Source: Brachybacterium muris (GTDB taxonomy: Bacteria; Actinomycetota; Actinomycetes; Actinomycetales; Dermabacteraceae). From it: a stretch of 64,000 nucleotides of DNA. The first letter of the stretch is position 1, and every line of letters starts with the position of its first letter. A model generated the notes under the pieces. It was not told the origin of the DNA. It did not search any database and saw only the letters and a program-made list of their open reading frames with translations. Below are positions 5,345-45,292 of the stretch, one piece after another. Location: positions 3,162,001 through 3,226,000 of the forward strand of contig NZ_JAFBCB010000001.1 of assembly GCF_016907455.1 (NCBI RefSeq), written 5' to 3'. A program made the position numbers and the translations under genes.

Positions 5345-7051
5345 TCAGCGCTCGCGCAGCCCGGTGATGCTGTCGGGGATGTGGTGACCTGTCGCCTCCG
5401 GGGCCTGGTGGGGCGGGGCTTGGAACGGGGAGCCGTCACCGCCGAAGTCCGGCAGGCGCCCGGCGATCACGTCGGCCTCGCGCACCTCGGTGGTGCGGGC
5501 CCCGGGCAGGGACTCATCGATCCACAGTCGTTCCCCGGCGGCGTCGAGGTCGAAGATCTCCAGGGTGTGGTCCTGGCCGTCGGCCTGGAGGCGCTGGCGC
5601 AGGTGGGCGCGCACGGCGGGGTCCCGGGCCCGGTCGGCGCGGGTGCCGATGTCCGGGGCGATCAGGGCGTGTGGGGCCTCGCGGCGCATGTACCGGTGGG
5701 CGGGCCCGTAGTACACGGCTCGCAGGCCGCTGCGCAGGGCCGATGCCGATCCCAGCCCGAGCAGTGCCACTGCCACCAGTGCGCCGAGCACCACCCAGGT
5801 CCACGACAGGCCTGTGCTGGCCCCGAGCAGTTCGAGCACCAGCGCGGTGAACGCGATCGCGGCGAGCGCCGCGCCGGCGACGATCCAGCCGGAGAGCCCC
5901 ACCACGCGGGCCTCCCAGGGGTTCACGCGGGCTCGGTGCGCCCAGGACGGGTAGGAGCGCTGGTCCGTCACTTGGGCACGCTGGGATCTTGACAGCGGCG
6001 CTGCCAGCGCGGGCGCGAACGCGGCGGCGGCCACGGTGACCAGGGCGATCAGGGCCGCCCCAAGGACGGTGGGCCAGTTCAGGGGGGCGGACTGCACCGC
6101 CTGCAGGTCCCGCCCCATCCCGGTGAACACCGCGACCACGTCGGCGATGCCGAAGACCATCACGCCCAGTCCCAGCAGCGCGGGCGCCACCCATCGCAGC
6201 CAGGCGCCGCCCTGCACCAGCACGGAGGTGGCGAGCCCCCGCGGGGTGAGGGCGCCGGCAGCCTCGGGGGTGCCGGGGTTCGGGGGCAGGTGGCGGCGCT
6301 CCTGGGCCAGCACCTGCCGGGCGGCCCGGCGGCGGGCGTCGTGGTCGCGGTCCAGCCGGGCGGTGGTCTCCAATGCTGCGGCGGGGGTGATGCCCAGGAC
6401 CCGCGGGGCGCTCATCCAGGAGCGGATGCTGACCCAGGCCAGCATGATGGCGAGCAGCCCGGCGCACAGGGCGGTGAGCGGCCCGGGGCTGAGGCTGGGC
6501 CAGTGCAGGAACGGCACCCGACCGAAGGGTTGGGCCACCAGGATGATCAGGATCGCGACGGTCACCAGTACCGGTGCCATCAGCACGGCGGTGATGCGGG
6601 TGGCGACGGTGCGTTGGAACCCGGCCTCGCTGAGGTGGTGGCGCGGGTTGATCCCGGAGATCGCGATCGCCGCCAGCGGCAGCAGTGCCACGCTGATCGC
6701 GGTGGCCGCGGCGGGGAGGAACAGGACGGTGGTCCACAGTCCGCTGGAGGTGAAGCCCAGCGATCCCAGCGCTGCCCGCAGGTAGTGCGGTTCGACCAGG
6801 CCCACCAGCAGGCTCAGCGACCAGAAGGTGGGCGAGGCGCCCGAGACGTACACGAACACCAGCACGAGCCACATGGTCATCAGTACCAGGGCGGGCACCC
6901 ACACGATGCGCAGCATGCGGCGGGTGAGGGCCCTGCGGGAGTCGATCAGGATCTCCCCCGGCGGCACCAGGGCCGGGTTCTCCTCCGGCAGCCGCGGCGG
7001 TGAGGGGAGGTCCGTCAGCGGTGGCAGGGCGCGGTCGAACGGTGAGGTCAT
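5345..7051 (-). CDS. Large polytopic membrane protein, function unknown
   Basis: This 568-residue protein has roughly nine or ten hydrophobic helices. They lie in two groups (about residues 45-200 and 280-440), separated by a charged cytoplasmic stretch near 225-262 (TARLDRDHDARRRAARQ), and the C-terminus is hydrophilic, ~130 residues long. A good ribosome site (AGGAG) precedes the ATG at 7051. It converges with the ABC permease gene (20-bp gap), so it is not part of that operon. I see no catalytic motif and do not recognise the family; a transporter or ABC-2-like permease is conceivable. Confidence 0.75.
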   Translation of the reverse strand: MTSPFDRALPPLTDLPSPPRLPEENPALVPPGEILIDSRRALTRRMLRIVWVPALVLMTMWLVLVFVYVSGASPTFWSLSLLVGLVEPHYLRAALGSLGFTSSGLWTTVLFLPAAATAISVALLPLAAIAISGINPRHHLSEAGFQRTVATRITAVLMAPVLVTVAILIILVAQPFGRVPFLHWPSLSPGPLTALCAGLLAIMLAWVSIRSWMSAPRVLGITPAAALETTARLDRDHDARRRAARQVLAQERRHLPPNPGTPEAAGALTPRGLATSVLVQGGAWLRWVAPALLGLGVMVFGIADVVAVFTGMGRDLQAVQSAPLNWPTVLGAALIALVTVAAAAFAPALAAPLSRSQRAQVTDQRSYPSWAHRARVNPWEARVVGLSGWIVAGAALAAIAFTALVLELLGASTGLSWTWVVLGALVAVALLGLGSASALRSGLRAVYYGPAHRYMRREAPHALIAPDIGTRADRARDPAVRAHLRQRLQADGQDHTLEIFDLDAAGERLWIDESLPGARTTEVREADVIAGRLPDFGGDGSPFQAPPHQAPEATGHHIPDSITGLRER

Positions 7052-35970: not shown

Positions 35971-37662
35971 TCAGGTGGCGGGGGTGAGCCGGGCGGCGAG
36001 CACGTCGATGAGGTCAGCCGGGGAGTCGAGCACCAGGTCGGCGTGACCAGCGGCGAGGGCCGACTCAAGGGCGGCATCGGGGTCCTTGCCACCGCGCAGC
36101 AGGCACACGGTGCCGATGCCGGCGTCCTTCCCGCCGCGGCCGTCGTTCAGGGCCTTGTCGCCCACGTAGACCACGTCGGCACGGTCGGTGGCCAGTCCCG
36201 CGAGCGCGGCGTCGAACACGGCGCGGCCGGGCTTGCGCACCCCGATCTCGTCGGAGTAGGCGGCGGGGCCGATCAGGTGGCCCACGCCGTAGCGGTCCAG
36301 GATCTCCCGCACCCCACGACCGGAGATGGTGTTGGAGACGATGCCGACCACGACGTCGTTCTCGGCGCACCACCGGATCAGGTCGATCACGCCGGGGCGC
36401 GGGGCGGGCAGGGACTTCGCGCGGTGCAGGGCCAGGGACAGCTGCGGGGCCTCCAGGCGCAGGACGGCGCGCAGCGGCTCGGGCAGATCCGCCCCGACCA
36501 GGTCGCCCCACAGGACGGCGGGGTCCACCTCGTCGTGGCGGTGGCCCGGATCGGCCAGGGCGTCCCGTTCGCGCTTGCGGGCGCGGTGGCGGTCCCAGCC
36601 ATCGGCGACGGCCTGCGCGGCATCCTCCAGGGTGAGCTGGATGCCGATGCGCTCGGCGAGGGCGAGGATCATGCCGCCCACCTCGCGGTCCCGCTCCGGG
36701 TTCGGGGAGGACTCGGTGATCACGCCCCCGTGGTCCAGGAGCAGGGCGGGGCGGGCGGGAGCGGGTCGCGGGCGGGTGGTCGCGGCGTCCGGCACGGTCG
36801 TCCCCGCCATCTGCACGGCCGGGGCTGGGGCCGCATCGAGGGCCTCGCGCAGCGGGTAGATCAGGTCCTCGGGGGTCTCGAGCACCAGGTCGGGGGTGTC
36901 GGAGACGTGGAACGGGGGGTTGTCGGTGCGGCGGTCGCGGGTGATCACCACGGCACCGGCGTGGGCCCGACGGCCGGCGGCCACGTCCCGGTCGAAGGTG
37001 TCGCCCACGTACCAGGCCTCCTCGGGTCGCACACCCAGGGCGTCGGCGGCCAGGCGGATCATGCCGGGGTGGGGCTTGCGGATCCCCACCTCGTCGGAGT
37101 AGATCTGCACGCCGAAGTGGTCGGCGAGGCCGTGCTGCTCGAGGATCCGGCGGTGGGCGCGACCGGAGTGGGCGTTGGAGACGATGCCCAGGCGCAGCCC
37201 GCGCTCCCGAGCGAGGTCCAGCAGCGCCGGGATGCCGGGGCGCACGTGGTGGTCGGCCACCAGCGGTGCCATCGCCGCGAGGATCGCCGAGGCGTCCAGG
37301 GCGAGGGCGGCGCGCACGGGGGCGGGCAGGTCGGCCAGCAGGAACTCGCCGACGATCTCCCGGGGGTCCAGCTCGCGCGGCTCCTGCCGGCGCGAGGAGG
37401 CGTTCTTCCACAGGGACAGGGCGGTGCGGCCGGCCCGCAGCGAGGCCTCGACCTGCGCGACGTCGAGCTCGGCGCCGAGCGCATGCCCGCGGGCGGCCAG
37501 CTGGGTCGCCAGGTCGCGGGCCCAGGTCATACGGGCGGTGGTGGAGAAGACCACGCCCCCGAAGTCCAGCAGCAGGGCCCGAGGGGCGGGCAGAGCCGGC
37601 GCCGGAGCCGACTGCGCGGTGACCGAGCGGGACTCGGCGAGGAAGGAAGGCGCGGTGCTCAC
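35971..37662 (-). CDS. Tandem fusion of two HAD-superfamily phosphatases
   Basis: This 563-residue protein has two full HAD-IA units. Unit 1 has motif I LLLDFGGVVF (D33), motif II GIVSNAHSG and motif III/IV GIRKPHPGM with YVGDTFDRDV. Unit 2 has LLLDHGGVIT (D310), GIVSNTISG, GVRKPGRAVF and YVGDKALNDG. Both have Gly in place of the usual second Asp of DxD, as in YihX-like phosphatases. The GTG at 37662 is preceded by GGAGAG. It is the first gene upstream of the ECF genes (72-bp gap), so it may process the imported cofactor; that is inference. Confidence 0.88.
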   Translation of the reverse strand: MSTAPSFLAESRSVTAQSAPAPALPAPRALLLDFGGVVFSTTARMTWARDLATQLAARGHALGAELDVAQVEASLRAGRTALSLWKNASSRRQEPRELDPREIVGEFLLADLPAPVRAALALDASAILAAMAPLVADHHVRPGIPALLDLARERGLRLGIVSNAHSGRAHRRILEQHGLADHFGVQIYSDEVGIRKPHPGMIRLAADALGVRPEEAWYVGDTFDRDVAAGRRAHAGAVVITRDRRTDNPPFHVSDTPDLVLETPEDLIYPLREALDAAPAPAVQMAGTTVPDAATTRPRPAPARPALLLDHGGVITESSPNPERDREVGGMILALAERIGIQLTLEDAAQAVADGWDRHRARKRERDALADPGHRHDEVDPAVLWGDLVGADLPEPLRAVLRLEAPQLSLALHRAKSLPAPRPGVIDLIRWCAENDVVVGIVSNTISGRGVREILDRYGVGHLIGPAAYSDEIGVRKPGRAVFDAALAGLATDRADVVYVGDKALNDGRGGKDAGIGTVCLLRGGKDPDAALESALAAGHADLVLDSPADLIDVLAARLTPAT

Positions 37663-37847
37663 GTCTCTCCGTTCGAGGGGGTCCGACCCGCTCCGGGCCG
37701 GCACCTCCCACGCTAGGAGGGCCCGGGGGGCGGCTTGTGAACGCCGGGTGAACCCGGTGACACACCTTCGCCACTGGACCTGAAACTCTTCAGATGCCCA
37801 CGTCGGGCCGGGGATGCCGACGGCCGGGCAGGTGGTAGACGTGGCCC

Positions 37848-38849
37848 ATGCCGCGCTCCCGCCCCACCCTCGCCGACGTCGCCCGTGCAGCCGGAGTCTC
37901 CTCCGCGACTGCGTCGATGGCGCTGAACGACCGGCCCGGCGTGCGGCACGAGACGCGCCTGGCGGTGCTGGCGGCGGCCCGGACGGTGGGGTACCGACGT
38001 GCCGGCCGGGGCACCAGCGGGCTGATCGGGGTGCTCCCCACGGACCTGGGGAACCCGTACCACACCGATGTGATCGCAGGGATCGAGGAGCAGGCCGAAC
38101 GGCAGGGCACGGGGGTGGTGATCGCCCATGGGAGGCGCGACAGCGCCCACCTCGAGCGCCAGCTGCAGCGACTGCTGGACCTGGGGGTGGACGGCGTGAT
38201 CGCGGTGACGACCTGGCTGAGCCCCACGGCGCTCGAGGCGGCCGCGGCACTGCTGCCGGTGGTGGTGATCGGGCGCATGCAGGATGCGGTCCCGGGCACC
38301 GATACCGTGCGCAACGATGACGAGGCGGGGGCGGCGCTGGCCGTGCGCCACCTGGTGGAACGAGGGCACCGGCACCTGGTCCACGTGACGCTGTCCACGC
38401 GGCCCGGACCGGCCTCCCGACGCGCCGGGTTCCTGGCCGAGGCGGAGCGCCTGGGGCTGCGGGACCGGGCGCGGGTGATCGGCCCCGACTCCCCGGCGGA
38501 GGGCATGGAACTGGTGCTGCGTGCCTTGCGCCGCGGGGACCCTGACGCCCCGACGGCCGTGTTCGCGGCCAACGACATCGCCGCGGTGTCGGTGCTGCAC
38601 CGCGCCGCCGATCGTGGGATCCGGGTGCCCGAGCAGCTGAGCGTGGTCGGCTACGACAGCTCGACGGTGGCCCTGACGGTGCGCCCGCACCTGACCAGCG
38701 TGAACCAGCCTCGATCGGAGATGGGCAGGCTCGCCGCCCAGATGCTGCAGGAGCGGTGGCGGGGCCGGGCGCACGACGCGGTGAGTGTGGTCGCCCCGGT
38801 GCTGCGGGTGCGCGGCTCCACCGGTACCGGGCCGGCGCTGCTGTCGTAG
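37848..38849 (+). CDS. LacI-family transcriptional regulator
   Basis: This 333-residue repressor has an N-terminal helix-turn-helix (TLADVARAAGVSSATASMAL, residues 7-26) with the hinge LAAARTVGYRRAG, then a periplasmic-binding-protein-like sensor domain (GLIGVLPTDLGNPYHTDVIA, TAVFAANDIAAVSVL, LSVVGYDSS). It is divergent from the HAD-ECF operon (185 bp between starts) and may control it, or a sugar gene elsewhere; no operator was identified with confidence. Confidence 0.93.
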   Translation: MPRSRPTLADVARAAGVSSATASMALNDRPGVRHETRLAVLAAARTVGYRRAGRGTSGLIGVLPTDLGNPYHTDVIAGIEEQAERQGTGVVIAHGRRDSAHLERQLQRLLDLGVDGVIAVTTWLSPTALEAAAALLPVVVIGRMQDAVPGTDTVRNDDEAGAALAVRHLVERGHRHLVHVTLSTRPGPASRRAGFLAEAERLGLRDRARVIGPDSPAEGMELVLRALRRGDPDAPTAVFAANDIAAVSVLHRAADRGIRVPEQLSVVGYDSSTVALTVRPHLTSVNQPRSEMGRLAAQMLQERWRGRAHDAVSVVAPVLRVRGSTGTGPALLS

Positions 38850-38940
38850 GCGGTCCGCGGGATGCCGAATGTGACCTGCGCCGTCCTGGTTCGCGCTGAT
38901 CGCAGGCGTCAGGTAATCTGTACCTCGCTCTATGAGCGCT

Positions 38941-39025
38941 GGAGGATTCGCCTAGCGGCCTATGGCGCACGCCTGGAACGCGTGTTGGGTTAACGCCCTC
39001 GGGGGTTCAAATCCCCCATCCTCCG
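38941..39025 (+). tRNA. tRNA-Ser (GGA anticodon)
   Basis: The acceptor stem GGAGGAT/ATCCTCC, anticodon stem CACGC/GCGTG with loop CTGGAAC (anticodon GGA), a long variable arm and T-arm GGGGG-TTCAAAT-CCCCC give a complete 85-nt class II tRNA. CCA is not encoded (GCCG follows). Its 3' end is the attachment site of the downstream island. Confidence 0.97.
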
Positions 39026-39028
39026 CCG
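39014..39028 (+). repeat. attL: tRNA-Ser 3' end
   Basis: CCCCATCCTCCGCCG here is identical to 45125-45139. The gene remains intact because the element carries the same 3' end. Confidence 0.75.
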
Positions 39029-39031
39029 TGT

Positions 39032-39080
39032 CCTGAGTCGCGACATCGTTGACAGACGATGTCGCGACTCAGGCTTTTTT
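39032..39080 (+). terminator. Intrinsic terminator after tRNA-Ser
   Basis: A perfect 18-bp stem (CCTGAGTCGCGACATCGT, 39032-39049, with its complement at 39056-39073), 6-base loop and CTTTTTT tail. It starts 7 bp after the tRNA. Confidence 0.95.
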
Positions 39081-39178
39081 GCGTGGGTTCACTGGCTGGC
39101 CGGGGCGGGGTGTCTGGGTGGGTGTGCTGTGGGTTCGCGGGAGCTTGGGCTGGTAGTCCCGGCCGGGGTCGGTGCGGT

Positions 39179-39255
39179 ACTCACCGGTCAACGATCACCA
39201 GCACGATCCCTGCCCAGGGCTGTGTCGTGAACTCACACACCCCATCCCGCGCCGT
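39179..39255. repeat. Left copy of ~80-bp island repeat
   Basis: ACTCACCGGTCAACGATCAC... through CACACCCCATCCCGCGCCG matches 45057-45139 with few differences (45 bp with one mismatch, then a 7-bp gap, then another ~30 bp). Its end is a decayed attachment core (CCCCATCCCGCGCCG). The remaining 39081-39302 holds no gene. Confidence 0.85.
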
Positions 39256-39302
39256 GTGACCAGCGATGATGGTGTTTTCCGTGCTGGTTTGGCTGTGCAG
39301 GA

Positions 39303-40607
39303 TCACTCGAGCGAGCCAGTGAGCCCCGGCAGCCACAGCGACAGCGCGGGCACGTACGCGATGAGGATCAGCAGTGCGATAAGCGCGGCGAAGAACGGCA
39401 GCAGGCGCGGCACCACCCGCTCGATGCTCACCCCCGTGATGCCGGTGGCGACGAACAGCACCGACCCGACCGGCGGGGTCATGGTGCCGATGCACATCGC
39501 CATGATCAGCACCATGCCGAAGTGGACCGGGTCCATGCCTACGCTCTCTGCGATGGGCAGCATGATCGGGGTGAAGATGAGGATCGCCGGCGTGATGTCC
39601 AGGAACGTGCCCACGGCCAGCAGCACAATGAGCATCAGAGCGATTACCACCGGCCCGGAGGAAGCGACCGACAGCATGGCGTCGGTGATCGCCCCGGGGA
39701 TCCCGCTGAACGCCATGATCCAGCTCATCGCGCTGGACGCGGCCACGAGCAGCATCACCACGCCGGTGGCGCTCACGGTGTCGCGGATGATCCGCGCGAT
39801 CGCCTCCCGGTTCAGCGCCCGGTAGATCAGGGAGAGCACCAGGCAGTACACGACGGCGACGGCTGCACCCTCGGTGGCGGTGAAGACGCCGGCCACGATG
39901 CCCCCGACCACAATGATGATCAGCAGCAGCGAGGGGATGGCACGCAGCAGCACAATGAGCCCCTGCCGTAGGCCAACGCCCTCGCCGCCACGCAGCCCCT
40001 GGCGCAGCGCGATCACGGTCGCCACCGCGATCACCACGAGGCCCATGAGGATGCCGGGAACGTATCCGGCCATGAACAGCGCTGAGACGGACACGCCACC
40101 GGCGATGGTGGAGTAGACGATCGCTGCGGTGGTCGGCGGGATGAGCAGCCCGGTGGAGGCGGAGGAGATGTTCACCGCGGTCGAGAACGCCGGGTCATAC
40201 CCTTCCTCCTCCTGTCGCCGGTGCAGGGTGCCACCGATCGCGGCAGCGGAGGCCACCGCAGACCCGGACAGGGCGCCGAACAGCATGTTCGCCACCACAT
40301 TGGTGTGCGCGAGGGAGCCGGGCACGCGACCGACGATCACGAGTGCCAGGTCGATCAGGCGCCGCGCGATACCGCCGCTGTTCATGATGTTGCCGGCGAG
40401 GATGAACAGGGGGATCGCCAGCAGCGGGAAGCTCTCTACGCCGCCGGTCATCTGCTGCCCGAGGATGAAGGTGGCGTCGCTCCAGCCGAGCACCGCGACG
40501 ATGGTGACGAAGCTCGAGACGCCGATCGCAATGGAGATCGGGACCGATGCGAACAGCAGCAGGAAGAACAGCCCGAACAGCAGAAGGGCAGCACCGAGGG
40601 CGCTCAT
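39303..40607 (-). CDS. dctM: TRAP transporter large permease DctM
   Basis: This is the ~12-helix 434-residue ion-coupled channel subunit of a tripartite ATP-independent periplasmic transporter. Typical segments are LLAIPLFILAGNIMNSGGIA, GALSGSAVASAAAIGGTLH, SSASTGLLIPPTTAAIVYST and GTMTPPVGSVLFVATGITGV. It overlaps dctQ by 4 bp (ATGA). It lies at the left end of the tRNA-Ser island. No frameshift is seen and it looks functional. Confidence 0.95.
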   Translation of the reverse strand: MSALGAALLLFGLFFLLLFASVPISIAIGVSSFVTIVAVLGWSDATFILGQQMTGGVESFPLLAIPLFILAGNIMNSGGIARRLIDLALVIVGRVPGSLAHTNVVANMLFGALSGSAVASAAAIGGTLHRRQEEEGYDPAFSTAVNISSASTGLLIPPTTAAIVYSTIAGGVSVSALFMAGYVPGILMGLVVIAVATVIALRQGLRGGEGVGLRQGLIVLLRAIPSLLLIIIVVGGIVAGVFTATEGAAVAVVYCLVLSLIYRALNREAIARIIRDTVSATGVVMLLVAASSAMSWIMAFSGIPGAITDAMLSVASSGPVVIALMLIVLLAVGTFLDITPAILIFTPIMLPIAESVGMDPVHFGMVLIMAMCIGTMTPPVGSVLFVATGITGVSIERVVPRLLPFFAALIALLILIAYVPALSLWLPGLTGSLE

Positions 40608-41203
40608 CGCTTGTCCTCCGTCCGTGTCGAGGGACGGCTGGTATCCGCCGTGGATCGGGTATCGCCTGCGACGGCTGAGGGCTTAGTCGCCTGGGTCGCC
40701 TGCGTCGCCGCGGCTGCCTGGCTGCTCGTGCCGTCGGCCGACGGGTCCAGCAGGGCGGTGACCTGAGCAAGAGCAATCATCAGGCCGCTGATCGGGACGA
40801 TCGCGTAGACGGCGCCACGGGAGATGCCCAGCAGCGCCGACATATCGCCCAGCGAGGACAGCACCAGCATCACACCGCCGATACCGAGCACGAGCACGGC
40901 GAACAGCAGCACCAGCACGTCCACGGCGCGGGTCAGTCCGCGCCGGGCGGGGGCCGACAAGCGGTCCGGAAGGATCGACAGCGCCATGTGCCGACGCTCG
41001 AGGAATGCGTACGACGCCGCGAGGAAACTCGTCCAGATCAAGGCGTATCGCACCAGTTCCTCGGTCCAGGCGGTGGGCTGGTTCAGCGCGTAGCGCGTGA
41101 CGATCTGGATCATGACCAGCACGGTCATGAGTACGAGCAGTGTGCCTGCGCTCCACAGCAGGGCCGTGGCGAGGCCGCGGCGGATGGTTGCGATGCCTCT
41201 CAT
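40604..41203 (-). CDS. dctQ: TRAP transporter small permease DctQ
   Basis: This 199-residue four-helix subunit pairs with DctM. The conserved pattern NQPTAWTEELVRYALIWTSF with LAASYAFLERRHM (residues ~37-71) is diagnostic. The C-terminal ~45 residues are a Thr/Ala-rich tail without helices. It lies 11 bp downstream of dctP and overlaps dctM. Confidence 0.92.
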   Translation of the reverse strand: MRGIATIRRGLATALLWSAGTLLVLMTVLVMIQIVTRYALNQPTAWTEELVRYALIWTSFLAASYAFLERRHMALSILPDRLSAPARRGLTRAVDVLVLLFAVLVLGIGGVMLVLSSLGDMSALLGISRGAVYAIVPISGLMIALAQVTALLDPSADGTSSQAAAATQATQATKPSAVAGDTRSTADTSRPSTRTEDKR

Positions 41204-41214
41204 ACCAGCTCTCC

Positions 41215-42261
41215 TCAGCCTCGTGCCTTCTCGATGATGTCCAGAACGTCGGCCACCTCGGGGAAGTCCGCGCCGAACTCGTCGACCACCTCGCGGGTTG
41301 CCTCCCGGAAGCCCTCCTGATCGATGTCCTCGATGAACTCCACGCCCATCTCGGCCGCCGCGGAATAGGACTCCTCGATACTGGTGGCCCAGTCCTTCTT
41401 GTGGTTCTCGGTGGCGGCTTGCGCGGCCTCCCGCAAGGTGGTGCGGTCCTGTTCATCCAGCCGCTCCCAGGCGGGCGTGCCAATGGTGAGCAGGTCGGGG
41501 ATGCGCGTGTGCTCGGTGAGGGAGAAACACTTGGCTACTTCGCCGTGCCCGGACTGGTCCAGCGCGGTCTCATTCGATTCGGCGCCGTCGATCAGCCCGG
41601 TCTGCAGGGCGGTGTAGATGTCACCGAAGGCCATGACGATCGGGGAAGCGCCCAGCGCGGACATCATCCGCACCTGTGTGCGCATGTCCTGGATGCGGAT
41701 CTTCAACCCGGCGGCATCCTCCGGTGTACGCACCGGGGTGCTGCCGGTATAAAAGGAGCGGGCGCCGGAGGTGAAATAGGTCAAGCCCAGCAGGCCAGCA
41801 TCCTCATTCGAGGTGAAGAAGCGCTGCATGGCGTCGGAGTCGAGCGCCGCGTAGTAGTGCTCTTCGGAGTCGAACACGTAGGGCAGTCCGAATGCGTGGT
41901 AGCCCGGGTTCCAGGCGGCAAGCCCTGGTGAGCCGACGCGGGTCATATCGACGATGCCCTGGCGCAGCTGGCCGAGCACCTGGGGTTCGCTCCCCAGCTG
42001 TCCGCTGTCGAACATGGAGATCCGCAGCCGGCCCTCGCTGCGCTCCTCCACCTCAGTCGCGAAGGCGGCGAGGGCCTTCGACGTCACGTGCTGTGGGTCC
42101 AGACTGTTGGCCAGTGACAGCGTGAGCGGTGCGGAGCTGCTGGCGTCCGCACTGGTCATCTGCCGGGAGGGGTCGCCGCAGCTGGCGAGTGCCATCGACC
42201 CGAGGCCAACGGCGCCAGCGAGCGCCAGAGCGCGGCGCCGGGTGGGGAGCGCGTGGTTCAT
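41215..42261 (-). CDS. dctP: TRAP transporter substrate-binding lipoprotein DctP
   Basis: This 348-residue receptor catches the substrate outside the membrane. A signal with TRRRALALAGAVGLGSMALA leads to a lipobox Cys at residue 28 (ALASCG). DctP-family segments follow: SGQLGSEPQVLGQLRQGIVD, GLPYVFDSEEHYYA, the Arg-containing KIRIQDMRTQVRMM that normally clamps a carboxylate, and GLIDGAESNE. A carboxylated ligand such as a sugar acid is therefore likely. Its start lies 8 bp after the GH31 gene. Confidence 0.93.
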   Translation of the reverse strand: MNHALPTRRRALALAGAVGLGSMALASCGDPSRQMTSADASSSAPLTLSLANSLDPQHVTSKALAAFATEVEERSEGRLRISMFDSGQLGSEPQVLGQLRQGIVDMTRVGSPGLAAWNPGYHAFGLPYVFDSEEHYYAALDSDAMQRFFTSNEDAGLLGLTYFTSGARSFYTGSTPVRTPEDAAGLKIRIQDMRTQVRMMSALGASPIVMAFGDIYTALQTGLIDGAESNETALDQSGHGEVAKCFSLTEHTRIPDLLTIGTPAWERLDEQDRTTLREAAQAATENHKKDWATSIEESYSAAAEMGVEFIEDIDQEGFREATREVVDEFGADFPEVADVLDIIEKARG

Positions 42262-42268
42262 CGCAATC

Positions 42269-44902
42269 TCACATTCCGATCATGTCGAAGGGCTCGACGC
42301 TGACCACGATGCGGTGGTCGGCACCGTCGTCCGGCATGCGCACCAGGGCGCGGCCGAGCTCCGGGTCGTAGTGCCAGGCCCGCCGTGCCGCATCGAAGCG
42401 CGGGCGGTGCAGCTCCTGGTCAATGCGCTCACCGTCGATCTGCACCCAGTACGGGGCACTGGACGGGCAGATCACCTCCCACTGCACGTGGCTGAGCGGG
42501 CTGCGGAAAGAGCCTGAGCGTGTCAGTGTGATCTCGATGCGGTCACCGCCATTGACGGTGATGGTGGATTCGCGCAGGTCGCCGCACTCGTAACCGCGGG
42601 TTGCGCCGTCGTCCTCGTAGAGCACGAACTCGGCGGGGCCGTCGGCAGCGGCCGGGGGTGCGCACAGAATTCGCAGACTCTCGGGTCCCGCGCCGGTCAG
42701 ACTCATCGGCTGCTCGGCAGCGATCGGCAGGATCGCACCATCGGGCAGGAACAGCGGGATGGAGGAGAGGTCCACGTCCAGGGTGATCTCCTGCCCGCCC
42801 TCGTGCACGCGTCCTGTGTCGAGCTCGTGGAAACGCCGCCCGGCAGGCAGACGCACGGTGCGGGTCCGCGCCCCCTCTTCGAGCACGGTCGCGACCAGCA
42901 GGGCGTCGCCGAGCATGAACTCGCTGCTGGTGGTATCCAGTGCCGGGTCCTGCTGGAAAGCGGAGACCATCGGCTCCATCAGCGGCAGACCCTCGACATA
43001 CGCGCGGCGCATCAGCGAGTACAGGTAGGGCGTGAGGCGGTAGCGCAGCAGGATCGCCTCGCGCACGAGCGGAGCGACCGACGGATGCATCCACGGCTCA
43101 GTGACCGTGTTGTCGCTGTTGACCGAGTGGATGGAAAAGCGCGGCTGGAAGATGCCGTGCTGAACCCAGCGCAGCAGCAGCTCGGGGCCGGGCCGTGGAC
43201 CGGCGAAGCCGCCGATGTCACAGCCGTGATGGGCCACACCGGACAAGCCCATCCCGAGGATCGTGGCGATGTTGTGCTGCAGCGATCGCCAGGAGGTGAA
43301 GTTATCGCCCGCCCACGTCTGGGCGTACCGCTGGATGCCGGCGTGCCCGGCACGGCACACCACGAACGGGCGAGCGTCGGGGTCGACGGCGCGGATCGCG
43401 TCATGGGTGGTGGCGCACATGAGGTTCGCCATCACGGTGCGCAGTCGGCCGATGGTGGCGCCGTGGCCTTCGAAGTCGACCCGGGCATCCTGATCCACGA
43501 TCGAGTCGTACTCGCAGTTGTCGTTCCAGACCGAGAGCGTGCCCTTGTCGAGCACGGCCTCCTGCAGCCAGGTCGCCCAGGCCTCGCGGGCGGCTGGGGA
43601 CGTGAAGTCGACGAACCGGCCGGGGCCGCCCCACCACATGCCACGCTCGGCGTCGGGGGCGACATCGGCGTCGGCTGCATGGTTCGCTGCGTTGTCGATT
43701 CCGGAAGAGCCGTCGGGTCCGGCGGAGCCATCTGCCCCAGCCGGGCCGTTAGCCCCGCCTGCATCGCTCTGCGTGCCCTCTGCTGTGCGCACGAGGACGC
43801 CGGCACTCGCGAACTCGCTCAGGCGCGGGTGCACGTCGAGGATGCCGGGCTTCACATTGGGGGAGACGACGATGCCACGCTCGCGCATTGACGCGAAGAA
43901 CCCCTCGGGATCGGGAAAGCGGTCATCGTTCCACGTGAACACACAGCGTTTCGGCCCGTCGGCCGTGTCCTGGGTGGTGTAGCCGGAGGAGAGCTGGAAG
44001 CCGTCCACCGGGATGCCTTCGCTGCGCGCGGTGTCGATGAAGTTCAGCAGCGCCTGGTCGCAGTCGCGATCCAGTTCGGCGTAGAACATGGACGAGGCGA
44101 GGTAGCCCAGCGCCTGCCGCGGCAGCATGGCGGAGCGGCCGGTGAGCATCGTGATGCGCCGCACGACGTCACGGATCGACGGGCCAGCGATGACGAACAG
44201 ATCCAGGTCCCCGCCGTCGGCGCGCATGCGGGTACGGCGCGGCCAGTAATTCGAGTGCTCGCGCGCGAGATCCAGATCCAGCGCCCACGTCGTGTGCCAG
44301 AACATGCCGCTGGCTCGCCGGGTGGCGCGGTCCAGGCGGATCCCGGCCGGGATGTGTTTGTACAGCGGATCCGAGTTCTCGGGGTCGAAGCCGAGTGCGT
44401 CCTTCGGGCTCAGCGTCAGGGCGCGACGGGACTTGTCCAGGCTCCCGGTGCTCTCACCGAAGCCGTAGAACGCGTCGTGCTCGCCGGCCACGGCATAGTG
44501 CAGCACGCGCTTGTTGGTGTCCTGCTGCCAGGCGATCCCCGGCACGTCGCGGTGCAGCACCTGGCCGTCCTGATCCGTCACCGTGATCGCGAAGGGGTTG
44601 CGGTCCACACGCACGGTGAGTCGGCCGCCGCTGATCAGCACGTGGTCGTCCTCATCCGCGTCGATCGTGAGCGGGAGGGGATCGACGCGAGTGCGCTCCT
44701 CGCCAAGCACGGGATCAAGGCGGTCTTCCCAGGCGGTGGTGACCAGGCTGTAGGAGGCTTCCTCGAAGGCTCCGTCGAAGCTGGCACGGATTCTCAGCAC
44801 TTCGGGCGTGAGCAGCAGCAAACGGATCTCTGGCCCGTTGGTGAGCAGGCGGATCCAGGGGCCGTCTGTGTAGACGGCTTGCAGCGCACGGGCGATGAGC
44901 AT
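42269..44902 (-). CDS. GH31 glycoside hydrolase (alpha-glucosidase/xylosidase type)
   Basis: This 877-residue retaining alpha-glycosidase is probably cytosolic, as no signal peptide is seen. The N-terminal beta domain includes YGFGESTGSLDKSRR. The barrel shows DGFQLSSGYTTQ, the nucleophile region VWNDNCEYD, the acid/base region YAQTWAGDNFTSWRSL, and HHGCDIGGF. C-terminal beta domains follow. A ~45-residue Gly/Ala/Asp-rich insert (near 420-465) interrupts the barrel. I chose the ATG at 44902, which follows AAGGAG; longer upstream frames lack homology. It is the first gene of the island operon, ahead of the TRAP genes. Confidence 0.92.
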   Translation of the reverse strand: MLIARALQAVYTDGPWIRLLTNGPEIRLLLLTPEVLRIRASFDGAFEEASYSLVTTAWEDRLDPVLGEERTRVDPLPLTIDADEDDHVLISGGRLTVRVDRNPFAITVTDQDGQVLHRDVPGIAWQQDTNKRVLHYAVAGEHDAFYGFGESTGSLDKSRRALTLSPKDALGFDPENSDPLYKHIPAGIRLDRATRRASGMFWHTTWALDLDLAREHSNYWPRRTRMRADGGDLDLFVIAGPSIRDVVRRITMLTGRSAMLPRQALGYLASSMFYAELDRDCDQALLNFIDTARSEGIPVDGFQLSSGYTTQDTADGPKRCVFTWNDDRFPDPEGFFASMRERGIVVSPNVKPGILDVHPRLSEFASAGVLVRTAEGTQSDAGGANGPAGADGSAGPDGSSGIDNAANHAADADVAPDAERGMWWGGPGRFVDFTSPAAREAWATWLQEAVLDKGTLSVWNDNCEYDSIVDQDARVDFEGHGATIGRLRTVMANLMCATTHDAIRAVDPDARPFVVCRAGHAGIQRYAQTWAGDNFTSWRSLQHNIATILGMGLSGVAHHGCDIGGFAGPRPGPELLLRWVQHGIFQPRFSIHSVNSDNTVTEPWMHPSVAPLVREAILLRYRLTPYLYSLMRRAYVEGLPLMEPMVSAFQQDPALDTTSSEFMLGDALLVATVLEEGARTRTVRLPAGRRFHELDTGRVHEGGQEITLDVDLSSIPLFLPDGAILPIAAEQPMSLTGAGPESLRILCAPPAAADGPAEFVLYEDDGATRGYECGDLRESTITVNGGDRIEITLTRSGSFRSPLSHVQWEVICPSSAPYWVQIDGERIDQELHRPRFDAARRAWHYDPELGRALVRMPDDGADHRIVVSVEPFDMIGM

Positions 44903-45056
44903 CGCTCTCCGACTCCTTCGGCGGTCTCGGCACAGGGCAACGCAGGGAACACAGCAACGGTGTCGAGTCACTGTGACATGCTCCACCGGTTGCCGCGCAT
45001 TGTCATCGATTGCCGTCCGCAACGAACACGACCCCCGGTTCGTCAACGATGACGCG

Positions 45057-45139
45057 ACTCACCGGTCAACGATCACCAGCACGAGCCCTGCCCAGGGCTG
45101 TCAACGATGTCGTGAACTCGCACACCCCATCCTCCGCCG
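45057..45139. repeat. Right island repeat containing attR
   Basis: This is the second copy of the ~80-bp repeat at 39179-39255. It ends with CCCCATCCTCCGCCG (45125-45139), the exact 3' end of tRNA-Ser, i.e. attR. Confidence 0.85.
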
Positions 45140-45140
45140 A

Positions 45141-45190
45141 ACGAAAGGCCCCTGACCTGCGATGCTGATCGCGAGTCAGGGGTCTTTCGC
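45141..45190 (+). terminator. Displaced original tRNA terminator (hairpin)
   Basis: ACGAAAGGCCCCTGAC (45141-45156) pairs with GTCAGGGGTCTTTCGC (45175-45190) over 14 of 16 positions plus one wobble. It sits directly after attR, at the same distance at which a terminator follows the tRNA gene, so it was probably the terminator before the island entered. No gene lies between 44903 and 45292. Confidence 0.7.
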
Positions 45191-45292
45191 ATGCTCCGAG
45201 CGGCAGCGTTCCGCCACCTGCCCGCACACCGTCCCCCGAGCCCAGGCACCCCGATATCCTTCGTGTGAGCCAGCGCATGGGAGGGGGACGTG

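Follow-up and report, generated by a model that had tools for sequence, protein, structure and literature searches.

A Probable Decayed Composite of a tRNA-Targeting IS481 Family Lineage in a tRNA-Ser(GGA) Gene of Brachybacterium muris

Introduction

Islands at tRNA genes are usually ascribed to phage-type integrases. The window, which is the whole 64-kb stretch of the Brachybacterium muris genome analysed here, contains a block inserted at a tRNA-Ser(GGA) gene, and, as the initial annotation had pointed out, no integrase gene is located between its ends; this space is filled by the DctM, DctQ, DctP, and GH31 genes. Which type of element brought the block to the tRNA gene? Very probably, segment 39029–45124 is a transposase-less derivative of the IS481 family, probably a decayed composite, and it is derived from a transposase clade that inserts 3' of the tRNA T-loop. 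The features of the locus are listed in Table 1.

Table 1. Coordinates of the tRNA gene, transposon ends, duplications, and cargo in the window.
Feature	Position	Strand	Basis
tRNA-Ser(GGA), target gene	38941..39027	+	ARAGORN; sequence
Target-site duplication, tRNA copy, starting directly after the T-loop	39014..39028	+	sequence
Transposon left end (LE): tip TGTCCTGAGTCGCGACATCGTTGACAG, perfect hairpin, T run; likely replacement tRNA terminator	39029..39080	+	sequence, fold
Transposase C-terminus remnant, TGA inside	39075..39206	-	similarity to B. timonense transposase
RE1, right end of the first IS copy, which is internally deleted; lacks 7 nt present in RE2	39182..39239	+	sequence comparison
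Target duplication made by the first IS copy; tRNA-Ser(UGA) as the most likely source	39240..39254	+	sequence comparison
Cargo	39255..45019	-	93.8% identical to B. timonense L165:5762–11453
DctM, TRAP transporter large membrane subunit	39303..40607	-	PF06808
DctQ, TRAP transporter small membrane subunit	40604..41203	-	PF04290
DctP, TRAP solute-binding protein	41215..42261	-	PF03480
GH31 family glycoside hydrolase; mechanical ORF to 45046, start codon at 44902 putative	42269..44902	-	PF01055, PF13802, PF21365, PF17137
RE2, outer IS right end; motif GTCAACGAT repeated, tip ...GTGAACTCGCACA	45020..45124	+	sequence, motif copies
Distal copy of the target-site duplication, identical to that in the tRNA	45125..45139	+	sequence
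Native hairpin of tRNA-Ser(GGA), now displaced; terminator position	45140..45192	+	directly follows the tRNA in 13 relatives

Structure of the Inserted Block

The T-loop GGTTCAAATC of tRNA-Ser(GGA) ends at 39013, and the 15-bp tRNA 3' end that follows it, CCCCATCCTCCGCCG, recurs at 45125. This recurrence had been noticed in the initial annotation and holds: the copies agree at 15 of 15 positions, and in the 64-kb window the exact sequence is found at 39014 and 45125 and nowhere else, with a version carrying two mismatches at 39240–39254. Since matches with up to three mismatches are no commoner than in shuffled sequences (15 found, shuffle mean 12.65, 24 of 100 shuffles reaching 15), weight is placed only on the exact copy and its context. 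This context consists of inverted ends, LE starting with TGTCCTGAG... at 39029 and the right end finishing with ...CTCGCACA at 45124, so that the exact 15-bp duplication brackets the TGT/ACA tips of the block. TGT/ACA tips are given for IS481 family transposons in PMC11406308. The repeats had been taken for att sites; instead, they are the target-site duplication of a DDE transposon of the IS481 family, and both island boundaries are the ends of this transposon, with TGT...ACA tips.

Of the transposase itself, approximately 44 residues are left in the block. The remnant corresponds to residues 367–410 of the B. timonense transposase with 59% identity (66.7% over residues 372–410 in a second comparison) and lies in an inner IS remnant of 211 bp (39029–39239), whereas RE2 is a bare 105-bp fragment. 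Thus, where a composite transposon has two IS copies flanking its cargo, the left copy is internally deleted here and only the right end of the other is present; a second flanking IS is not seen at the locus. A search of the same genome for the cognate transposase revealed only this remnant and six matches at 25–26% identity, and at E 1e-60 the genome gave no match to the clade. The block is classified as a non-autonomous derivative of the tRNA-targeting IS481 clade, not as its full member.

The repeat of about 80 bp that the initial annotation had tied to islands is real, with 98% identity over 45 nt between 39179–39223 and 45057–45101 and 91% between 39223–39254 and 45108–45139, but it represents the transposon right end and is not specific to islands. 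Three IS copies of B. timonense carry it as well, without an island, a finding that the initial annotation had itself named as contradicting this link, and the region 45020–45137 is 89.8% identical to L024:8917–9034.

The hairpin at 39032–39073 with its T run, now standing behind tRNA-Ser(GGA), scores as a terminator, in agreement with the earlier suggestion that the tRNA is followed by a different, insert-borne hairpin. The same type of fold was found in 23 LEs of the genus at tRNA ends, and it is likely that the LE hairpin replaces the terminator of tRNA-Ser(GGA). The block is missing at tRNA-Ser(GGA) in 13 of the 19 loci of relatives that were read, and there the tRNA is joined directly to the hairpin that follows 45139 in the window; these empty sites bear out the proposed insertion. 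In the remaining six, tRNA-Ser(GGA) carries the same island (G027), a full IS (G008), or a small transposase-less element (G041), and in G029, G018, and G003 the match is at the ends of other tRNAs. The hairpin after 45139 is, as proposed, in the position of a tRNA terminator and is the displaced native hairpin; however, it receives no terminator call under the strict rule that scores the LE hairpin.

Intact and Related Elements in Other Genomes

In B. timonense (G008), an intact element is found in the same tRNA-Ser(GGA) gene and another in tRNA-Ala, both with an exact duplication and an IS481 transposase, and a broken copy is located at tRNA-Pro. The intact elements are 1425–1426 bp in length and contain one transposase ORF, whose product P0001 matches NF033577 with 256.2 bits against a cut-off of 224. 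By fold comparison, the transposase resembles retroviral integrase cores (Z 18.7, rmsd 2.4, 161 aligned); IstA matches most of its length (Z 16.8, rmsd 11.1, 262 aligned). These fold matches say nothing on target choice.

In G041, which belongs to another family, an independent transposase-less element of the same architecture is present at tRNA-Ser(GGA), and several species of the genus carry solo left ends at their tRNAs. For other left ends, partner duplications were sought at 20 loci. The tip was not located at five of them, L274 was outside the search, and the duplication could be defined at 14; for these, the stretch examined contained no second copy (up to 20 kb, only about 55 bp at L272 and L273, and with a possibly wrong tip at L271). 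No second cargo island was found among the scanned left ends, which says little about the rarity of such islands.

Target Rule of the Transposase Clade

To 158 loci scored against a clade profile, a line of 380 bits was applied, drawn after a gap in the scores had been seen; the profile was built from loci found with a transposase noticed at a tRNA. This line is reached by 103 loci, eight of which are cut by contig ends, and of the 95 assessable ones, 90 are located at the 3' end of a tRNA, 83 as judged by an automatic test and seven as read by hand; several loci in these counts are copies within one genome. Among the seven, just a truncated tRNA-Ala end is visible at L111 and L113, and a T-loop is present at L281 with no TGT tip. 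Below 300 bits, the clade geometry was found at none of 52 loci, four of which are at tRNAs in the opposite orientation; two C-terminal transposase fragments located at tRNAs, L292 and L300, were set aside. Two further loci, L168 (an IS481 match in G173) and L169 (G027), contain pieces with 24–34% identity to P0001 and no adjoining tRNA; they were left out of the locus counts.

Two samples (L206–L225 and L275–L302, 48 loci) were read regardless of place. All 25 assessable clade members in them are at tRNAs, including the fragments L284, L292, and L300, and none of the 22 non-members has the clade geometry. L302, a further clade member, is cut. Of 44 exact duplications, at loci that have TGT/ACA tips by the search rule itself, 41 begin right after TTCRANTC, with a length of 15–17 bp. 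The window block has the same geometry, with insertion immediately 3' of the T-loop and the tRNA reading into LE. Clade elements are mostly 1.25–1.49 kb long with a single IS481 transposase of about 400 aa, and the tRNA-located transposases fall inside one fork of the tree (SH-aLRT 98). The clade members L048 and L056 have perfect 15-bp duplications outside tRNAs; therefore, the target rule is not absolute. No tRNA can be recognised at the sites of L073, L077, and L080 either. Base 13 after the T-loop is invariably C; a role of this base as a target requirement was considered and rejected, as element-free tRNA genes share it (64/64).

We lean, with some reserve, towards a broader reading, namely a lineage of single-gene bacterial transposons with a universal tRNA address. 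Its transposase alone would read the T-arm, which almost every tRNA has in common, insert at one position in one orientation, rebuild the tRNA, and supply a terminator. The LEs of dead elements would stay as tRNA terminators, and composites would appear as integrase-less islands whose inner duplication marks the previous address.

Origin of the Cargo

The limits of homology point to the place from which the cargo came. Compared with G008, the cargo is 93.8% identical, while the aligned right flank shows 72.4% and the two long aligned left segments 76–80%; compared with G027, the cargo shows 98.4% and the flanks 78.2% and 93.3%. In G008, the TRAP/GH31 block starts at the 3' end of tRNA-Ser(UGA), and the homology of the window to this genome begins inside that 3' end (window position 39250 onward). 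When tRNA-Ser(UGA) of G000 with about 1.5 kb on each side was compared with the G008 locus by blastn, only the tRNA aligned; the G008 right flank is located elsewhere in G000. Both observations weigh against the explanation preferred here. Most likely, the island brought genes from beside tRNA-Ser(UGA) to tRNA-Ser(GGA).

The third copy of the repeat, which the initial annotation had placed at 39241–39255 as a decayed att copy, is present one base away, at 39240–39254. Given the G008 locus, the att reading was set aside, and the copy is, judging from sequence comparison, most likely a duplication of tRNA-Ser(UGA). It reads CCCCATCCCGCGCCG in the window and CCGCACCCTGCGCCG in G027, while the end of tRNA-Ser(UGA) is CCGCACCCTCCGCCG. 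The G027 copy matches Ser(UGA) at 14 of 15 positions and Ser(GGA) at 12. The window copy is closer to Ser(GGA) (13/15, versus 11/15 for Ser(UGA)); therefore, the case for Ser(UGA) depends on the G027 copy together with the G008 locus, and conversion of the window copy has to be assumed. An LE at the tRNA-Ser(UGA) of G027 itself was not used as proof of a donor scar because the G027 LE at Gly(UCC) shares this hairpin.

Proposed Mechanism and Alternatives

A transposase of the clade inserts into a tRNA gene immediately 3' of the T-loop (GGTTCRANTC^), and a staggered cut produces the 15–17 bp duplication and rebuilds the tRNA 3' end, so that the tRNA remains whole. With the single orientation of the element, the tRNA reads into LE, the hairpin and T run of which may take over termination, and the old terminator ends up beyond the distal end of the insert. 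In the window, LE (39029) and RE2 (45124) are the outer ends. The 211-bp IS remnant with its own duplication suggests that this IS copy earlier stood at tRNA-Ser(UGA), right before the TRAP/GH31 operon, which would have lain beside this tRNA as it does in B. timonense today. The unit LE–RE1–TRAP/GH31–RE2 would then have moved to tRNA-Ser(GGA), most likely after interspecies transfer, and would now be immobile unless the cognate transposase returns.

The same transposon family would be involved if a circle or fragment with an IS and TRAP/GH31 had recombined homologously with an IS resident in tRNA-Ser(GGA), which we regard as possible, if rather unlikely. In G008, this very gene is occupied by a resident IS, the identity of RE1 and RE2 (98% over 45 nt) is consistent with such an exchange, and the order LE–RE1–duplication–cargo–RE2 results from either route. 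Nothing decisive speaks against it; however, it would also require that the right IS copy was largely lost.

Two independent insertions into tRNA-Ser(GGA), an older cargo element (39255–45124) and a younger, deleted IS (39029–39239) with the inner copy as a decayed Ser(GGA) duplication, seem improbable. Newer insertions are expected next to the tRNA, tandem IS with an intervening tRNA duplication exist (L087 and L245), and the window inner copy does match Ser(GGA) at 13 of 15 positions. However, there is no recognisable left end at 39255, and the G008 sequence from window position 39250 on continues out of the tRNA-Ser(UGA) 3' end; hence, position 39255 belongs to the native sequence that follows Ser(UGA) rather than to the end of a transposon. 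The 14/15 agreement of the G027 inner copy with Ser(UGA) also argues against two insertions.

A tyrosine-recombinase island with attL/attR sites in the tRNA, be it an ICE, a prophage, or a remnant, whose integrase has been lost or acts in trans, would account for the tRNA 3' end target, the exact direct repeat, the whole tRNA, and the displaced hairpin, but it is highly improbable, given that the exact boundaries are inverted transposon ends like those of intact IS481 elements, that an IS481 transposase remnant lies inside, and that the cut at the T-loop edge fits the clade rule.

Comparison with Known Systems

Among the matches listed in searches of mostly open literature outside ISfinder, no description of a tRNA-targeting IS481 group was found, and the passages covered in PMC11708052, PMC11406308, PMC3751702, PMC6563490, and PMC3119063 contain none. 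A DDE transposon with a sharp, general tRNA target very probably represents a second route to tRNA islands, one that can account for islands lacking an integrase, for tandem duplications, and for terminators separated from their tRNA. Under the broader reading above, composite forms would be integrase-less tRNA islands that would wrongly pass for integrase islands. The clade would also offer a compact one-protein system for studying target choice by DDE transposases, with the native address present many times per genome, and a case in which the recruitment of transposon ends as tRNA terminators can be tested.

IS481 family elements produce duplications of up to about 15 bp. The window lineage resembles this family in the transposase above the cut-off, the TGT/ACA tips, the single ORF, and the duplication; the clade differs in the tRNA T-loop target, the fixed orientation, and the duplication length of 15–17 bp, while the other IS481-like loci (<300 bits, n = 52) are without the clade tRNA geometry. 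Composite transposons carry passenger genes between IS copies. Like these and mobile insertion cassettes (MIC), the block contains passenger genes between IS ends and no transposase, and by its sequence it may be counted among the MICs; unlike them, it has a 211-bp deleted IS on one flank, a 105-bp end on the other, and a tRNA target.

Tn7-like elements and CASTs, for which use of tRNA genes as att is described in PMC11406308, are likewise DDE transposons homing to tRNA genes. They choose the site by TniQ/TnsD or crRNA, whereas here a single transposase would address many tRNAs through one shared motif. The intact B. timonense elements of 1425–1426 bp with one ORF leave no room for the TnsB/TnsC/TniQ gene set and so do not fit the Tn7-like or CAST type. 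Ty1, Ty3, and Dictyostelium TRE elements insert outside the tRNA gene through the Pol III machinery. Like the IS481 clade, they treat tRNA genes as safe havens and insert at a fixed position, whereas the clade inserts inside the gene, the 3' end of which is rebuilt.

Ends of the Island and Its Target Site

In Brachybacterium timonense (G008), an open frame of 426 aa at tRNA-Ser(GGA) is enclosed by the same end sequences as the island in the window. A second copy of this element is found at tRNA-Ala; additionally, a broken copy is located at tRNA-Pro and a truncated one at tRNA-Met. The encoded protein (P0001) is an IS481 family transposase with rve domains (PF00665/PF13683). The element is 1425–1426 bp long at tRNA-Ser and tRNA-Ala, with exact duplications at both sites; the matching repeat reaches 18 bp at tRNA-Ser and is 16 bp at tRNA-Ala. 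The boundaries of the island are the left end (LE, 39029) and the right end (RE, 45124) of the same element. A remnant of the transposase C-terminus is situated between the LE and an inner right end (RE1), which lacks 7 bases relative to the outer one.

The only tRNA gene in the window is tRNA-Ser(GGA). Its last bases and one flank base form the repeat CCCCATCCTCCGCCG. The initial annotation had claimed that the tRNA 3' end recurs at 45125, and an exact copy of CCCCATCCTCCGCCG is indeed present there; the copy at 39240 has two mismatches. A search with 45040–45200 as the query, run against 58 genomes including that of B. muris, revealed matches in 27 of them. In the whole 3.65-Mb genome of B. 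muris, the query matches itself and 39179–39254, with no third place at E 0.001. The suggested empty site was found: in 13 of the 19 relatives' loci read, tRNA-Ser(GGA) is joined directly to the displaced hairpin. The remaining six comprise the same island (G027), the intact IS (G008), a small transposase-less element (G041), and the ends of other tRNAs (G029, G018, and G003).

Features of the island and its neighbourhood in the window
Feature	Position	Strand	Remark
Long ORF, HAD hydrolase domains	35971–38970	minus
LacI-type regulator ORF	37848–38849	plus
tRNA-Ser(GGA)	38941–39027
LE, outer boundary	39029
Hairpin and T run in LE	39032–39073	tRNA strand
RE1	39182–39239		inner deleted IS copy
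Inner duplication	39240–39254
Cargo: TRAP transporter (DctM/DctQ/DctP) and GH31 genes	39255–45019
RE2	45020–45124		outer right end
Displaced hairpin	after 45139

The ~400-bp element of G041, a relative of another family, lies within tRNA-Ser(GGA) (L022:1020–1640) and shows a new hairpin, a duplication, and the displaced hairpin, i.e., the layout of the window minus the cargo. To the left of the island, the HAD and LacI-type ORFs overlap; the real start of the HAD gene is probably downstream of the mechanical ORF start.

Targeting of tRNA Genes by the Transposase Clade

Relatives were sought with the G008 transposase, one genome per species, and the best 80 of 229 stretches (50–100% identical) were read. 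At first look, a tRNA predicted by ARAGORN was located no more than 160 bp from the transposase 3' end in 60 of these 80 loci, always on the opposite strand. Exact duplications were detected in 44 of the 80, and 41 of them begin after TTCRANTC. The exceptions are L048 and L056, which are off target, and L087, where two IS in tandem are separated by a tRNA-Gly duplication. The duplications read give the target rule, a single cut immediately behind the T-loop with 15–17 bp duplicated. The 68 tRNA-located loci of the best 80 come from 54 genomes (tallied by record title) and involve many tRNA kinds.

As a control, the best 30 IS481 loci of a search in 149 genomes of the order were used. None of the 30 has this geometry, with the tRNA on the opposite strand and reading into the LE; two are at tRNAs in reverse orientation. 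Two further samples were read regardless of place: 20 lower-ranked IS481 matches of the 149-genome search (part of those listed) and 28 clade-profile matches at E 1e-60 from 22 of 296 phylum genomes searched. Joint scoring of 158 loci placed 103 at 380 bits or above, the fragment L284 at 313.8 bits, and 54 below 300 bits. Eight of the 103 are cut, and 90 of the remaining 95 are tRNA-located. These calls were automatic in 83 cases (ARAGORN tRNA, or T-loop followed by TGT) and made by hand in seven (L045, L071, L105, L111, L113, L087, and L281), L111 and L113 being truncated tRNA-Ala ends. The five clade loci not at tRNAs are L048, L056, L073, L077, and L080. Below 300 bits, L292 and L300 are C-terminal fragments at tRNAs; this geometry occurs in none of the other 52 loci, four of which are flanked by tRNA-Lys or tRNA-Arg on the other side. 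When only the two samples are counted, all 25 assessable clade members are at tRNAs (L284, L292, and L300 included; L302 is cut), and none of the 22 non-clade loci has a tRNA in this geometry.

The elements L045 and L071 are 2.4–2.5 kb long and contain a block that looks like another IS and is inserted between the transposase and the LE, with the tRNA beyond it. Two clade members (L046 and L119) occur in MAGs labelled Acidobacteriaceae and Chloroflexi, which may be binning errors. A second, distant IS481-like group (L147, L148, L291, and L295) is located at the 3' ends of tRNA-Lys/tRNA-Arg in the opposite orientation, the tRNA being upstream of the transposase on the same strand; in L147 and L148, a visible duplication lies at the end of the tRNA or immediately beyond it.

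In a tree of 129 distinct proteins (identical ones entered once), all 75 tRNA rows fall inside one fork of 86 rows with an SH-aLRT of 98, together with seven cut rows, three off-target rows, and the long-branched non-tRNA row L225. A clade relative at E 1e-60 was found in one of 72,556 plasmid records, an Arthrobacter sp. plasmid (L303, NZ_CP012477.1), where it adjoins a tRNA 3' fragment; a duplication and, on the far side, a terminator-like hairpin can apparently be read there.

In its AlphaFold model (mean pLDDT 83.7), P0001 has helical N-terminal parts, a core resembling retroviral integrases, and a strand-rich C-terminal part (319–377). Residues D146, D205, and E250 are invariant and fit a DDE triad.

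The Left End as a Proposed Replacement Terminator

The LE motif was sought in 38 genomes of the genus and matched in 15; 30 loci were read. In 23 of the 30, it stands exactly behind a tRNA end: 21 follow ARAGORN tRNAs (His, Gly, Ser, Arg, Ala, Pro, and Met), L228 follows a tRNA-like 3' end, and L245 a duplicated tRNA-Arg end. Of the other seven, two are repeats internal to the RE, four look like chance matches, and one is another IS; a reversed-pattern control yielded zero matches. All 23 LEs contain a hairpin of 16–18 bp, and most have a T run, which is not clear in L232, L241, and L248. The 21 equally long LEs (all except L241 and L251) represent 16 distinct 40-nt sequences, in which standard pairs occupy 286 of 288 cells versus 68 to 126 of 240 to 288 with one arm slid. 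We infer that the LE acts as a tRNA terminator and put it no more strongly because the hairpin arms may also be conserved as a pair of binding sites for the transposase.

Sixteen of the 23 loci showed no match to P0001 in stretches of at most 1.5 kb, two of which stop ~30 bp past the motif. LEs of this kind directly behind tRNAs in other species of the genus are L226, L241, L247, L251, L232, L248, L233, L234, L235, L236, L238, and L240. Possibly, LEs that keep the hairpin behind tRNAs have been taken over as tRNA terminators.

Origin of the Cargo

Positions 39250–45024 are 93.8% identical to L165:5762–11453 of G008, versus 72.4% in the right surroundings and 76–80% in the left (two long aligned segments). 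Between B. muris and G027, the identity is 98.4% in the cargo versus 78.2% (left) and 93.3% (right) in the flanks. In G008, the homologous stretch starts where tRNA-Ser(UGA) (5676–5765) has its 3' end, and the 45040–45200 query found no IS end at this locus. The inner duplication of G027, CCGCACCCTGCGCCG, differs from the end of Ser(UGA) at a single position; that of the window is mixed (Ser(UGA)/Ser(GGA)). The G+C content is 67.4% in the cargo versus 70.1% in the window. Among the 38 genus genomes, GH31 has close relatives in G027 (99%) and G008 (94–96%), and more distant ones (57–59%) in G015, G006, and G005; no tRNA was found near the G015 and G006 genes in the stretches read. Identity is higher in the cargo than in its flanks. 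Taken together, these findings make it most likely that the block passed from one species to another and from one tRNA gene to another.

Mechanism and Comparison with Known Systems

The ends, the duplications, the sites with and without insert, and the target rule are observed. As for the course of events, the transposase itself would read the T-arm, the LE and RE2 would have moved as outer ends, and both IS copies would have decayed afterwards.

The element belongs to the IS481 family. No description of tRNA homing by a one-gene IS was found in the literature searched. In PMC11406308, tRNA homing is described for Tn7-like elements, which achieve it via TniQ or crRNA.
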